A stretch of 64,000 nucleotides of DNA from Leptolyngbya sp. CCY15150 (GTDB lineage: Bacteria; Cyanobacteriota; Cyanobacteriia; RECH01). The stretch is from NCBI RefSeq assembly GCF_016888135.1, contig NZ_JACSWB010000174.1:1-64000 (forward strand), in the 5' to 3' direction. A program made the translations under genes and the position numbers. Below, piece by piece: positions 57,279 through 64,000 of this stretch; within the stretch, counting starts at the first letter, position 1; every line of letters begins with the position of its first letter. The notes under the pieces were generated by a model. It was not told the origin of the DNA, ran no database searches, and saw nothing but the letters and a program-made list of their open reading frames with translations.

Positions 57279-57916
57279 GTTCACAGATGGGTTCAATAAA
57301 TGAGCTGCAACCAATGAGCTGCACAAAGCTAGGGGCGATCGCCCTGCGTTCCAATTCTAGTCATCTCCCGCCTTGGATGCCCCCCATGACGCTGTGTCGC
57401 CCCAACGGGTGACTCCCTGTTTCAAGGCGGGCCGCTGGGAATCCGGATGATCAGGGGCGAGGAGCATCTGGGTATGAGCTAGTGTAAGACTCGGTGCAGG
57501 TGCGGCTTGAGCTAGGCGATCGCCCCATGCTGCCTGGCTAAGACTGCCGGTGCATCACCTTGAGGGAGAATGCGCTAAACTGTCTGATGAGCAGTATCGG
57601 GCTGTTTATCTGTTCGCCTGCTCATGTTAGGACATCATTTCGATTGAAGTGGGTCGGTGCCCACTTTTTTTGTGTCTATATGATGTTGTCAGGATGTCGC
57701 AAGGTCTGCGCACCACCCCAGATTGGCTGAGGTGTAGGGACTGTACCGCTGCGTCAAGCCTAGGCATGGGGCATGACTAAATCTGATATATCACATCACC
57801 CTTTGGGAAAGGCAAGGCACCTGTAGCCTTAGAACGCCTTTGCCGACGATGTGCTCTAGATTTTAGGACAACCCCGCCCGTGATTCGCTGGTTTTCTATT
57901 GGTTTTTGCCGTTACG
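57279..57916. other. intergenic region carrying the rimP operon leader
   Basis: About 640 bases between divergent genes. The 3' half holds the two-hairpin leader at 57587-57671. Upstream of it several HIP1-like sites occur. No other gene was recognised. Confidence 0.5.
57587..57671 (+). promoter_or_regulatory. two-hairpin leader or small RNA ending in terminator
   Basis: ATGAGCAG (57587-57594) pairs perfectly with CTGCTCAT (57618-57625). A second hairpin AAGTGGG/CCCACTT (57647-57653, 57660-57666) with a six-base loop is followed by a T-tract. No plus-strand gene lies upstream, so this is either an attenuator for rimP-nusA-infB or the end of an independent small RNA. The E. coli rimP operon is also preceded by a terminator-like leader, but this is a comparison of layout only. 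Confidence 0.6.
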
Positions 57917-58384
57917 ATGACGCATCCCCTCACTCCACAAATCCTCGACTTGGCGATTCCGATCGCAGACTCCCTCGGGCTAGAGTTGGTCACTGCGGTG
58001 TTTTACACCAATCAAAGTCCGCCGGTGCTGCGCCTGGATATTCGCAACCTGTCCCAAGACACCAGCCTAGATGATTGTGAACGCATGAGCCGGGCCGTTG
58101 AAGCGAGTTTAGATGCCTCTGAATTAATTCCCGATGCCTACGTCTTGGAGGTTTCCAGTCCAGGCATTTCGCGATCGCTGACCACCGATCGCGAGTTCAT
58201 CTCCTTTAAAGGGTTTCCGGTTTGCCTAATGTTGACCGAAGCCTATAAAGGACACAAAAGTTTTTCAGGCAATCTGATTGAACGAGACGAGGAGTGTATT
58301 CACATTAACCAAAAGGGACGGGCGATCGCGATTCCTCGCCACCTCGTACAAACCGTTCAACTCAGCGATGCAGGCAGTGAATAA
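57917..58384 (+). CDS. rimP: ribosome maturation factor RimP
   Basis: A protein of 155 residues needed for 30S subunit maturation. The N-terminal alpha/beta domain contains LGLELVTAVFYTNQSPPVLR and LDDCERMSRAVEASLDASEL. The VLEVSSPGISRSLTTDREF segment is the family hallmark. The C-terminal SH3-like domain follows (FSGNLIERDEECIHINQKGR). ATG at 57917 fits the family better than the longer frame from 57899. It is the first gene of the rimP-nusA-ylxR-infB cluster, with 115 bases to nusA, and it is preceded by a terminator-like leader. Confidence 0.94.
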   Translation: MTHPLTPQILDLAIPIADSLGLELVTAVFYTNQSPPVLRLDIRNLSQDTSLDDCERMSRAVEASLDASELIPDAYVLEVSSPGISRSLTTDREFISFKGFPVCLMLTEAYKGHKSFSGNLIERDEECIHINQKGRAIAIPRHLVQTVQLSDAGSE

Positions 58385-58499: not shown

Positions 58500-59963
58500 A
58501 TGTCTATGGTCAATCTTCCTGGACTACAGGAGATGATTGATAGCATCAGTCGGGAGCGCAACCTACCCAAGCACGCTGTGCAAACAGCTCTGCGTGAAGC
58601 ATTGCTGAAAGGGTATGAACGCTATCGCCGCACCAATCGTCCGGATGATGCTCATTTTGATGAAGAATACTTCAGTAATTTCGAGGTGGAACTCGATATC
58701 GAAGAAGAAGGATTTCGGGTATTAGCCACCAAGACCATTGCTGAAGCCGTATCCAATCCCGATCATCAAATTGCCCTGCAAGAAGTGCAAGAAGTGGCGG
58801 CAGAAGCTCAGCTTGGCGACACAGTGGTGCTCGATGTCACCCCGGAGCAAGGGGAGTTTGGGCGCATGGCCGCCATTCAAACCAAGCAGGTGCTGGCCCA
58901 AAAACTGCGAGATCAGCAGCGCAAACTTGTTCAAGATGAATTTAAAGACCTAGAAGGCACTGTCCTGCAAGCCAGAGTGCTGCGGTTTGAACGGCAGTCG
59001 GTGATCATGGCCGTCAACAGCGGCTTTGGGCAGCCCGATGTGGAAGCTGAACTGCTGAAGCGCGATCAACTGCCCAACGATAACTATCGCGCCAATGCCA
59101 CCTTCAAGGTCTACCTCAAGCGGGTGTCGGAAGGATCGCATCGCGGCCCCCAGCTTTTGGTATCCCGTGCAGATGCAGGCTTGGTGGTCTACCTCTTTGC
59201 CAACGAAGTGCCCGAAATTGAAGACGAAGTGGTGCGGATTGTGGCCGTGGCCCGAGAAGCAACACCGCCATCGCGATCGGTGGGGCCTCGCACCAAAATT
59301 GCGGTGGATACCCTAGAGCGGGATGTAGATCCTGTGGGAGCCTGCATCGGGGCTCGCGGCTCGCGCATTCAGGTAGTCGTCAACGAGCTACGCGGTGAGA
59401 AAATCGACGTGATCCGCTGGTCTCCTGATCCGTCTACCTATATCGCCAATGCCCTCAGCCCGGCTCGGGTCGATGAAGTGCGGCTGATGAACTCGGAAGA
59501 TCGCCAGGCCCATGTCCTGGTTCCAGAAGATCAGCTCAGCCTTGCCATTGGTAAAGAGGGGCAAAATGTCCGATTAGCAGCCCGACTCACCGGCTGGAAG
59601 ATTGACATCAAAGACACGGCTCGCTATGACTATGACGCCGAAAATTTGAAGATGCAGGAACTGCTGGAGGCTCGTCAGGCTCGTCAAGCCGAGCTGGATG
59701 CGGAGAATGAGGAGTATGAAGACTATGACGATGAGGGAGAGGATCAAGACTCTGAAGAAGCGATCGCCCTCAACACCGCGTCTGATGATGATCTCGATGA
59801 ATCCACCTCTGGGGAAGCGGCTGCAGATATCGATGATGCAGAGGACGATCTAGAGAATGATGACGATCAAGGCGAGGATGACGAGATGGCAGCGGATGAT
59901 GCCGATCTAGAACCCTCCGATGGTTTTGGCGTTGAGCAACCGTCTGCCACTGAGCGACCCTAG
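58500..59963 (+). CDS. nusA: transcription factor NusA with acidic tail
   Basis: A protein of 487 residues that binds RNA polymerase and nascent RNA to control pausing and termination. The N-terminal polymerase-binding domain covers about 1-130. An S1 domain follows ([20 protein letters not shown]). Two KH domains follow: [20 protein letters not shown] and [20 protein letters not shown]. The last 110 residues are highly acidic ([20 protein letters not shown]) instead of the acidic repeat domains seen in E. coli. GGAGG nine to ten bases upstream supports the ATG at 58500. It lies between rimP and ylxR. Confidence 0.97.
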
Positions 59964-60101: not shown

Positions 60102-60401
60102 ATGAAGCCCAACGATCGCCGCTGCATCAGTTGTCGGAAAGTTGATCAAAAAGAGTATTTCTGGCGAATTGTCCGAGTTTATCCGTCTCGGACAGTACAA
60201 TTAGATGAGGGCATGGGGCGCTCCGCCTATCTTTGCCCATCTTCAGACTGCCTTAAAGCAGCTCAACGTAAAGACCGCTTAGGGCGATCGCTTAAAGCTA
60301 CTGTTCCTGATACGATCTATCAGGGATTGTGGCAGCGTCTATCCCACGACACTGCTGCTCAATCCATGGGCACAGATAGATCCCCGCAAGCAAGATCCTA
60401 A
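60102..60401 (+). CDS. ylxR: YlxR family RNA-binding protein (DUF448)
   Basis: A protein of 99 residues matching YlxR: NDRRCISCRKVDQKEYFWRI near the start and GRSAYLCPSSDCLKAAQRKD in the middle. The fold has a putative RNA-binding cleft; in several bacteria YlxR is a nucleoid- or RNase P-associated factor. Its place between nusA and infB is the usual one. It starts 138 bases after the nusA stop. The usual downstream L7Ae-like ribosomal protein gene is absent, and about 500 non-coding bases separate it from infB instead. Confidence 0.93.
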   Translation: MKPNDRRCISCRKVDQKEYFWRIVRVYPSRTVQLDEGMGRSAYLCPSSDCLKAAQRKDRLGRSLKATVPDTIYQGLWQRLSHDTAAQSMGTDRSPQARS

Positions 60402-60907: not shown

Positions 60908-63900
60908 ATGAACAACGGAAAAGTTAGAATTTACGAGCTATCGAAAGAGTTGAATTTGGAAAATCGAGACATTTTAGCCTACTGCGAAGAACTCAATATC
61001 GCAGTCAAAAGCCACAGCAGTACGATTACGGAAGCAGAGGCGACACAAATTCGCAGCGCCGCTGAGCGTCGCCCCGTCACTCACTCCTCCTCTAGTCGTC
61101 CCGCCCCCTCCCCAACCGCCGGAGGGAGCGCCCCCCCTAGTGCTGCCAAGCCTCTAGGAGCCCGCAAACCGGTTAAGAAGCAGCAGATTCTAGAAATCCG
61201 TCGGCATCACTCCACCTCTTCTGATGCGCCCAAGCCACCGGAGCAGCGGCCAAAACCAGCCATGCCGGAAGACGAACCCGCCGCTGCATCTGCACCGCTG
61301 CGTCCGCCTGCCCGTCCATCTGTTGCGTCACCTAGCGATAGTGAACCAGGGGATCGCGAGGTTCATGGAATCGATCAAAATGGGACTGCTCAACCTGTGC
61401 CGACTGAATTGCCAAAACCCATCGCGCCAAAACCCGTTGCGCCCAAGGCCCTCAGAGAAGATATATCAGAACCCACTACAGCTCCTGAGCGGCCAAAACC
61501 GGCCATGCCTCTCGTCGAGAAGCCCGTGGTGGATCCAGAGCCACCGGTTGATGAGTCTCCTTCTGAGCCATTAGAGCTCGAAGAAGAAGAGAATGCGCCT
61601 GAGTTGATTAAGCCGCCCTCTCGCCCCGTTGCTAAGACGCCTAGCCAGCCGCAGTCTACGGCCAGCCGTCCAATTCTGAAGAAAAACAGAACTGAGCCAT
61701 CGGATGGCCAGTCGGCAGAGATCATTCGCAGCCGGGAAGAACTCACTGGGCGACCAAAGTCTCCTAGCACGGACGACTCCAGAGACGTCGCAGCGGATAT
61801 GGAAGTTAGGCAGAAGCCCATGCTGAAGCCCAAGCCGACCATTGAGCTGCGTAAGCCAACCCGAGCCCCGAAAGTCGGCCGTGATGCAGACAGCACGGAT
61901 GGGGATGACACGAGAGATGAAACGGACATTACAGCGAAGCCAGACTTAGAGCTGCAGCGTCCTGCACCACCTCGTCCACCCAAGCGCAGCAAGTCACGTC
62001 GGGATCACGAGGAAGACGAAGAAGAAACGCCACGGGCAAAGAGTGTCAAGAGCAAGCGCCGCACGCAGCCGCTCATTGACGAAGATGAAGATCTAGATGA
62101 AGTGCTCAATGGCGATGAGAATGGCGCCAATCAGGTCAGCCTATCCCTAGCCCGTCCGCCCAAGCCTAAGGGTCGTCCACCGCAGCCCAAGGCTCCAAAC
62201 ACAGCCCAGGCTCAGAAGAAGCGGTCTGGCGGCGGTTCTAGGGAAAACTCCCGCAACAACCGACGCGATCGCCGCGAGCAAGAGCAGAAGGACAAGCGGC
62301 CAGAACATATTGTGTTGACCGATAGCCTCAGTGTCCACGACCTAGCAGCGGTGATTGGAGTTCCAGAAACCGAAATCATCAAAACCCTGTTCTTCAAGGG
62401 CATTGCGGCTAACATCAACCAAATTCTAGATGTTCCAACGGCGATTACCGTCACGGAAGAGTTTGGCATTACGGCAGAAACCGCTGAAGCTGAAGCTGAA
62501 GCGAAGAAAGTGACCGACATGATTGATGTGGGCGATCTAGAAAGCCTGCAGCGTCGTCCGCCGGTAGTCACCATTATGGGCCACGTCGATCACGGGAAAA
62601 CCACCCTGCTCGACTCTATTCGGAAGACTAAGGTCGCCCAAGGAGAAGCTGGCGGTATCACCCAGCACATTGGGGCTTACCACGTCGATATGGGCGAAGG
62701 AGACAACGCCCAACAGGTGGTATTCCTAGATACTCCAGGTCACGAAGCCTTCACGGCTATGCGGGCCCGAGGAACTCGGGTGACTGACATTGCTGTCCTT
62801 GTGGTTGCTGCTGATGATGGGGTGCGTCCGCAAACCATCGAAGCCATTAGCCACGCCAAGGCAGCCGAAGTTCCCATCGTGGTTGCTATTAACAAGGTAG
62901 ACAAGGAAGGGGCTCAGACCGAGCGCGTCAAGCAAGAGCTCACGGAATATGGTCTGGTGCCGGAAGAATGGGGCGGCAACACCATCATGGTGCCGGTGAG
63001 TGCCATCAATGGCGACAATCTCGACACCTTGCTGGAGATGATTCTCCTCGTAGCCGAAGTTGAAGATCTCTATGCCAACCCCGATCGCCCTGCTCGTGGG
63101 ACGGTCATTGAAGCCAACCTCGACAAGTCTCGTGGGCCAGTTGCAACCCTGTTGGTTCAAAATGGTTCCCTGCGAGTCGGCGATACCCTTGTAGCGGGTT
63201 CGTCCTTCTGTAAGGTGCGGGCCATGATTGACGATCGCCTCCAGCGGGTTGAGGCAGCCTATCCGTCCTTTGCAGTTGAAGTACTTGGCTTAAGCGAAGT
63301 ACCCGCCGCTGGGGATGAATTCGAGGTTTTCCGAGAAGAGAAGGAGGCGCGATCGGTTGCCGATTCTCGTAAGGAACAGCAACGTCAGTCTCGCCTGCAG
63401 CAGGCTATGGCATCTCGCCGAGTCTCCCTGAATACCCTGTCGATGCAGGCTCAGGAAGGCGAACTGAAGGAACTCAACCTCGTGCTGAAAGCCGACGTTC
63501 AGGGTTCCGTGGAAGCCATCTTGGGCTCTCTACAGCAGCTACCTCAGCAAGAAGTACAGCTTCGGGTGTTGCTGGCAGCGCCGGGTGAGGTAACTGAAAC
63601 CGACGTAGACTTGGCTGCGGCTAGTAATGCCGTGATCATTGGCTTCAATACCACCTTGGCAAGCGGTGCCCGTCAAGCGTCTGATGAAGCTGGCGTTGAC
63701 GTCCGCGAATACAACATCATCTACAAGCTCTTGGAAGATATTCAAGGAGCAATGGAAGGGTTGTTGGATCCTGAAATGGTGGAAGAACCACTAGGCCAGG
63801 TTGAAGTGCGGGCGGTCTTCCCGGTAGGCAAGGGGGCTGTAGCCGGTTGCTATGTGCAGTCGGGCAAGGCAATCCGGAACTGCCGTGTGCGGGTACGCCG

Positions 63901-64000
63901 AGGCAACGAAGTAGTTCACGAAGGTAATCTCGATTCCCTGAAACGGGTGAAGGATGACGTGAAAGAAGTCAATGCTGGCTATGAGTGCGGTATTGGCTTG
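60908..64000 (+). CDS. infB: translation initiation factor IF-2 (3' end beyond window)
   Basis: The first 1031 codons are present; the frame is open at the window edge, and the last residues visible (GYECGIGL) are near the usual C-terminus. The N-terminal IF2N domain ([19 protein letters not shown]) is followed by a long Pro/Lys/Glu-rich linker to about residue 460. A second IF2N-like part follows ([20 protein letters not shown]). The G domain starts near residue 553 with [34 protein letters not shown] and NKVDKEG are the other GTP motifs. IF-2 places initiator tRNA on the 30S subunit. AGAGGA lies nine bases before the ATG. Confidence 0.97.

Follow-up and report, generated by a model that had tools for sequence, protein, structure and literature searches.

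A class-wide terminator-ended leader before the cyanobacterial rimP-nusA-ylxR-infB operon: a probable attenuator with candidate NusA feedback

The rimP-nusA-ylxR-infB operon of Leptolyngbya sp. CCY15150 is preceded by a short leader that, judged by comparative sequence analysis, belongs to a real, class-wide type of attenuator leader in cyanobacteria, a variant of the known rimP-leader kind. The window analysed was a stretch of 64,000 nucleotides (contig NZ_JACSWB010000174.1). Comparison of rimP upstream regions points to a conserved terminator hairpin (P3), to its tie to rimP, to a conserved promoter box, and to a hairpin (P1) that opens the predicted RNA. We are confident, short of certainty, that the leader is an attenuator; given that it is, NusA is probably the main sensor, by analogy with other bacteria. 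The complete reading, a cis-acting attenuator of the operon under negative feedback by NusA, is probable. A first-pass annotation of this DNA had offered much the same interpretation, which as a whole is partly supported. The leader is known in kind and unusually clear in form, and one of its elements is possibly new.

Direct reading of the window bore out the two hairpins and T-run that the first-pass annotation had placed at 57587-57671 (Table 1), together with its distance to rimP, given as about 250 bases and read as 245 nt. The upstream gene was also correctly described as divergent: it encodes a 2OG-Fe(II) oxygenase (PF13640, E 8.4e-16) on the minus strand, and is therefore divergent from the rimP leader. 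The −10 box, absent from that annotation, was recognised by comparison with the leaders of relatives, and sets a predicted transcription start at ~57588. From there to the end of the T-run (seven T, 57665-57671) the leader is ~84 nt long, with 20 nt of linker between P1 and P3. Counted by the terminator scan, P3 has nine pairs (57646-57667). A generic sigma-70 scan found no promoter at the window leader. Within the 245-nt spacer, no GCTAMACT-type box was present and no promoter was recognised; an extra promoter downstream of P3 is possible in this gap.

Table 1. Leader elements and operon genes read in the window
Feature	Position	Strand	Description
Promoter −10 region GCTAAACT	57574..57581	+	Hexamer TAAACT at 57576-57581, read from sequence
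Hairpin P1	57587..57625	+	8 bp, ATGAGCAG (57587-57594) / CTGCTCAT (57618-57625); 5′ end of predicted RNA
Candidate local alternative hairpin	57636..57651	+	CAUUUC-GAUU-GAAGUG; overlaps terminator 5′ arm
Terminator hairpin P3	57646..57671	+	7 bp, AAGTGGG (57647-57653) / CCCACTT (57660-57666)
Spacer, terminator to rimP	57672..57916	+	245 nt
rimP	57917..58384	+	First gene of operon; ATG at 57917; PF02576 (RimP_N), E 1e-15
nusA	58500..59963	+	Presumed feedback source; PF08529 (NusA_N), E 3.7e-28; PF13184 (KH_5), E 2e-28
ylxR-like ORF	60102..60401	+	ORF; named from position and by the first-pass annotation
infB	60908..64000, runs off window	+	ORF; named from sequence by eye

Both hairpins were more stable than expected from shuffled sequences. 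The z-score was −3.81 for P1 alone (0/200 shuffles as good) and −3.86 for P3 alone (1/200), and the 90-nt RNA 57586-57675 gave −2.66 (1/200). The stability of the 325-nt stretch up to rimP was ordinary (z −0.98; 16/100 shuffles as good). An inverted repeat at 57632-57643 and 57675-57686 (12 nt, 83%) would form a longer stem around the terminator. Duplication of the leader within the window, considered from repeats at spacings of 236 and 241, was rejected, with 67/1000 shuffles aligning as well. Elsewhere in the window, a tRNA gene occupies 37-125 on the minus strand; the opposite strand matches Rfam RF04351 (Plastid-psbl-rps4 3′UTR), probably through an overlap of that family with tRNA.

In a DNA search covering 96 relatives, matches fell mostly on the terminator segment upstream of rimP, and rimP upstream regions were then collected. 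Genomes were tallied over 170 drawn from 221 with a RimP match. The locus set comprised 224 distinct upstreams from 250 loci (another, L234, yielded no RimP); 193 of the 224 were anchored, 72 of these were dropped for lacking a −10 box by rule, and the remaining 121 were collapsed to 78 nonredundant leaders. A hairpin of the form [AG]GTGGG...CCC[AG]C with T-run, or its compensated form GTCGG/CCGGC, stands before rimP in 147 of the 170 genomes and in 35 of the 39 families that they represent. Among the distinct upstreams, 198/224 carry a hairpin with T-run within 330 nt of rimP, and 183/224 have the [AG]GTGGG...CCC[AG]C motif or a near form. The leader outside this core is poorly conserved, with a mean column identity of 35% in the alignment.

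The core itself varies in few ways. On its 5′ side, 188 of the 193 anchored leaders read GTGGG and five GTCGG; on its 3′ side, 158 read CCCAC, 29 CCCGC and five CCGGC, and in one no 3′ core was found. The GTCGG 5′ core is matched by the CCGGC 3′ core, indicating a compensatory change. The compensatory changes that the first-pass annotation had proposed seeking in both stems thus occur in the terminator stem, in one family, while covariation in P1 is weak. The same annotation had named uncompensated loss of both stems in close relatives as evidence against its reading. Three genomes of the same genus keep both stems, and a same-family relative (L011/L051) keeps the terminator, with a hairpin of different sequence in the place of stem 1.

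By the tally rule, the motif was absent from 23 of the 170 genomes. Nine of these make up the whole of family f2 (9/9), which has small genomes and a rimP with a TTG start, and which we take to be picocyanobacterium-like. The others fall in f16 (3/4), f15 (3/21), f32 (2/11) and f33 (2/2), with one each in f3, f14, f23 and f34; L102 and L146 have altered cores. By eye, several f2 loci (L183-L191) share a GC-rich stretch like CTGRCGGGNACCTC...GGAGG...GGTCA in the last 230 nt before rimP, together with a CGGGC..GCCCG hairpin with no T-run; these are perhaps another structured leader. In f33 (L181, L182), TATTTTT comes after a GGG(G)..CCCC hairpin, right beside the start codon of rimP. In f16 (L147, L162, L163) no terminator was seen by eye before rimP, and an upstream open frame seems to run close to the gene, as though the operon were joined to that frame.

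The 5′ hairpin P1 changes in sequence between genera. Over the 78 nonredundant leaders, P1 regions had a mean z of −1.56, and stretches lying 5′ of the promoter averaged −0.12 (Mann-Whitney p 1.2e-9); 34/78 P1 regions had p below 0.05. The hairpin at this place in L051 has z −3.65, and its leader aligned with that of the window with a score of 67, compared with 24.7 in shuffles (0/500 as good). Pairing is kept in 95.3% of the P1 cells of 16 Nostocales-type leaders, and two pairs have changed on both sides. Among 500 shuffles, the number of two-sided pairs was reached in 256, of cells in 10, and the score in 52, which points to weak covariation at most. A further hairpin between P1 and P3, P2, is only partly supported (mean z −0.83; −0.75 in a second run, with 19/78 below −1.5).

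No general antiterminator was apparent in the 78 leaders. The terminator 5′ arm can pair with the upstream leader over 4.55 of nine bases (5.14 in shuffles), and the duplex between the two had a mean z of −0.14, with 8/78 leaders below −1.5. A local signal was found shortly before the arm. The pentamer [AG]CTTC, complementary to GAAG, occurs in the linker of 20/78 leaders, compared with 8.3 in shuffles (highest of 200, 16); enrichment of CATTTC and CACTTC in the linker was not clear. The five bases at 3-7 nt from the arm, on its 5′ side, can pair with it in 40/78 leaders versus 8.6 ± 2.6 when shuffled (highest of 300, 17). Collapsing the leaders at 70% identity left this pairing possible in 26/52 versus 3.9 ± 1.8, falling to 3-9/52 when slid. 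In the window, the pairing joins CAUUUC (57636-57641) to GAAGUG (57646-57651). With swapped arms the count was 23.1 ± 1.5 (highest 27), against 26 for the leaders' own arms. Swapped arms thus pair nearly as well, and the local signal may be one of sequence and not of pairing. The hairpin is moreover post hoc, having arisen from the consensus and truncated folds of the same leaders. The conserved UUUC, a potential pairing partner of the GAAG in the terminator arm, is accordingly given as a possibly new candidate pause or antiterminator hairpin.

Linkers are also conserved by lineage. The sequence ACATCATT is found in the linker of 11/78 leaders, compared with 0.1 in shuffles. The 16 Nostocales-type leaders share a linker ahead of the terminator, ACTTCTTGGAA.ATAT, that hardly varies and is more conserved than P1; it may be a binding site in its own right.

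Terminator-like leaders before rimP in other bacteria, which the first-pass annotation had mentioned, are indeed known: they form the rimP-leader family reported by Naville & Gautheret (2010, PMC2965389). The published and cyanobacterial leaders share a terminator with a GGG...CCC core and U-run before rimP-nusA-infB, a sequence signature tied to rimP, and, in most cyanobacterial relatives, a short gap to the start codon. The cyanobacterial form differs in that its core is extended to [AG]GTGGG/CCC[AG]C[T], and in that it adds a conserved promoter box and P1 in a leader of 69-94 nt (predicted start to T-run end, 78 nonredundant leaders). A local hairpin overlapping the terminator arm is a further candidate feature, whereas no antiterminator is visible in the reported family. 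The 245-nt gap of the window compares with a published terminator-to-gene range of 4-130 nt. The c after GGG and g before CCC of the published signature, lesser features given in lower case, are not matched by the window, which reads GGGT...GCCC; the base after GGG is T in 58/78 leaders and C in 11/78. The main text of that report contains none of the terms cyanobacteri*, Synechoc* or Nostoc*.

Comparison with the Rfam model of the same name and position before rimP (RF01770), which the earlier annotation had suggested, gave no match in the window. None of seven cyanobacterial genomes reached its 47-bit cut-off, nor did they show a weak match at rimP. The length of the model (102 positions) suggests that it describes the tandem Gammaproteobacterial form. 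Among the Rfam near matches, taken up to an E of 10, there were no bacterial leaders.

Precedents for NusA control of its own operon come from distant bacteria. The nusA operon of B. subtilis is reported to have a NusA-dependent attenuator (Mondal 2016, cited through review PMC12288461), which is likewise an intrinsic terminator in the 5′ leader of a NusA-encoding operon. The two cases differ in that cyanobacteria are reported to lack Rho (PMC13289151) and in that NusA dependence of the cyanobacterial leader is putative. NusA feedback on its own operon has also been reported for E. coli. In S. agalactiae, a short leader RNA before rimP-nusA ends 31 nt after the start, and NusA feedback has been proposed; in S. 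elongatus, two terminators are reported to be stimulated by NusA in vitro. In the open-licence literature we found no paper on a cyanobacterial rimP or nusA leader.

We propose that RNA polymerase would start near 57588 and make the short leader RNA, opening with P1 as a protective or structural hairpin. Most leaders would be released at P3, premature termination being the default, and the polymerases that read through would transcribe the operon. Since P3 stands before the operon, expression of the operon probably requires RNA polymerase to read past this hairpin. Termination in the cell, and its partial nature, we infer. At P3, NusA, encoded by the second gene, would promote termination or pausing: plentiful NusA would give less read-through and scarce NusA more, closing a negative feedback.

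A more specific version of this proposal, which we hold only tentatively, is a two-state NusA sensor, in which the UUUC-GAAG(U) hairpin would cause a NusA-dependent pause before the choice between termination and read-through. The 3′ end of the local hairpin, at 57651, lies ~9 nt before the terminator 3′ arm (57660) and 11-12 nt before 57662-57663. A distance of 11-12 nt is the spacing of the hairpin-stabilised pauses that NusA prolongs. If true, this sensor would supply the second structure that is missing from the rimP-leader family.

The attenuator could be real and respond to a sensor other than NusA, such as RimP, IF2, a ribosomal protein, NusG, temperature or nucleotide supply. Conservation of P3 in sequence, beyond structure alone, suggests a specific binder, and the lineage-specific linkers, ACATCATT and the near-invariant one of the 16 Nostocales-type leaders, fit such a sensor as well. 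RimP is named as a possibility by Naville & Gautheret (PMC2965389). In the literature consulted, however, these other candidates lack the precedent that NusA has in the feedback reported from distant bacteria, and we consider a different sensor rather unlikely.

The position of the terminator bears on whether the leader acts on rimP or as an independent RNA. Over the 183 distinct upstreams bearing the motif, the median gap from terminator to rimP is 18 nt. The T-run ends 13 nt from the start codon in 44 and within 26 nt in 119; the gap is at least 100 nt in 24, and in only one does it exceed the 245 nt of the window. With the T-run this close to the start, most carriers leave no room for a promoter between the two. 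Upstream, the box GCTA[AC]ACT occurs 40-150 nt 5′ of the terminator core in 90/193 leaders, compared with 1.15 in dinucleotide shuffles, and its distance to the core peaks at 72-75 nt.

A promoter box of its own, a 5′ hairpin and an intrinsic terminator are also the usual anatomy of a bacterial small RNA. The ~84-nt RNA might then act freely in trans, with read-through into rimP a by-product, in the manner of the actuatons described in Synechocystis (PMC5386190). Those sRNA/5′UTR cassettes likewise consist of a short terminated RNA that doubles as the 5′ UTR of the next gene, and their trait of a downstream gene without its own start site agrees with how short the gap is in most relatives. The reported cassettes are strain-variable, whereas the present leader is conserved class-wide with one operon; rimP, nusA and infB go unmentioned in the main text of that paper. 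A free RNA is also at odds with a leader that stays before rimP in nearly all carriers and does not stand alone, with a gap mostly too short for a second promoter, and with conservation that, across families, is highest in the terminator and not in an unpaired seed. We regard this alternative as improbable.

The attenuator reading is further supported by the behaviour of the hairpin, which tracks rimP while the upstream neighbour varies among lineages. In 89 relatives with long flanks, the neighbour was codirectional in 72, divergent in 16 and undecided in one; this tally used a rough longest-ORF rule that misjudged at least the same-genus genome L032. Codirectional neighbours, as judged by eye, include a malic enzyme in L007, a pentapeptide protein in L010 and, in L040, a channel-like protein that matched no Pfam family. 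Divergent neighbours identified by Pfam are, besides the oxygenase of the window, a solute-binding protein (L041), a serpin (L208) and a histidine kinase (L048). The hairpin stays with rimP under both orientations, and in codirectional relatives it could also end upstream transcripts. A hairpin that only terminates the upstream gene at its 3′ end, or shields against read-through, would suit the codirectional majority. The divergent neighbour in the window, the kept hairpin behind three other divergent genes, and the promoter box that separates the upstream gene from the hairpin all speak against this reading, and make it very improbable.

Specificity for rimP was also seen in whole genomes. 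In its own genome, the pattern AAGTGGGN{3,10}CCCACTTTTTT has a single match, at this leader (reversed control, 0). The strict pattern AGTGGGN{3,10}CCCACTTTTTT was found at 60 places in 52 of 116 genomes, with one match in the reversed control. Of these places, 51 lie upstream of rimP and within 520 nt of it, one of them (G010) ~470 nt away. A relaxed pattern gave 50 places in 41/59 genomes, 39 of them upstream of rimP, and five reversed-control matches. A regulon was considered from the nine strict places away from rimP and was rejected, as by eye they resemble ordinary intergenic terminators. At six of the nine a same-strand ORF ends 31-73 nt before the match; one is palindromic and counted twice, and one has no clear neighbouring gene (gene names at these places were judged by eye). 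The motif hairpin of locus L140 lies ~470 nt before rimP, just after a stretch that by eye resembles a tRNA 3′ end, and may end another transcript. Chance hairpins, for which it might be said that a generic terminator scan gave four sites in 2.5 kb with 2.5 expected, are refuted by the conservation in 147/170 genomes and the single occurrence in the window's own genome.

Variants of the terminator also occur in the phylum outside this class. Six of 20 rimP upstreams from other classes (L281-L284, L286 and L295, three by eye only) have AGTGGG with CCCACT, CCCGCT or TCCCACT, and seven of the 20 have no such hairpin. One family from another class accounts for the remaining seven and has AACGGG/CCCGTT with a T-run before rimP, in 7/8 genomes looked at. 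Its core, AAAGAACGG(G)...CCCGTTC, occupies the same place before rimP (L291, L292, L294, L297-L300). In E. coli K-12, CTGGGCTTTAGGCCC (GGGC..GCCC) and seven T end 17 nt before rimP. These comparisons suggest that the leader arrangement is old, and that the exact core may be a mark of the phylum or of part of it.

NusA, RimP and IF2 tie together transcription, ribosome assembly and translation. According to a 2026 study, canonical intrinsic terminators end only 22% of S. elongatus transcription units. With so few canonical ends, and with no Rho reported in cyanobacteria (PMC13289151), how the level of NusA is controlled becomes a live question. Because Rfam does not reach the cyanobacterial form, annotators gain a family that has been missing. 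The terminator, conserved class-wide nearly to the letter, offers a small and defined RNA on which NusA feedback could be tested directly.
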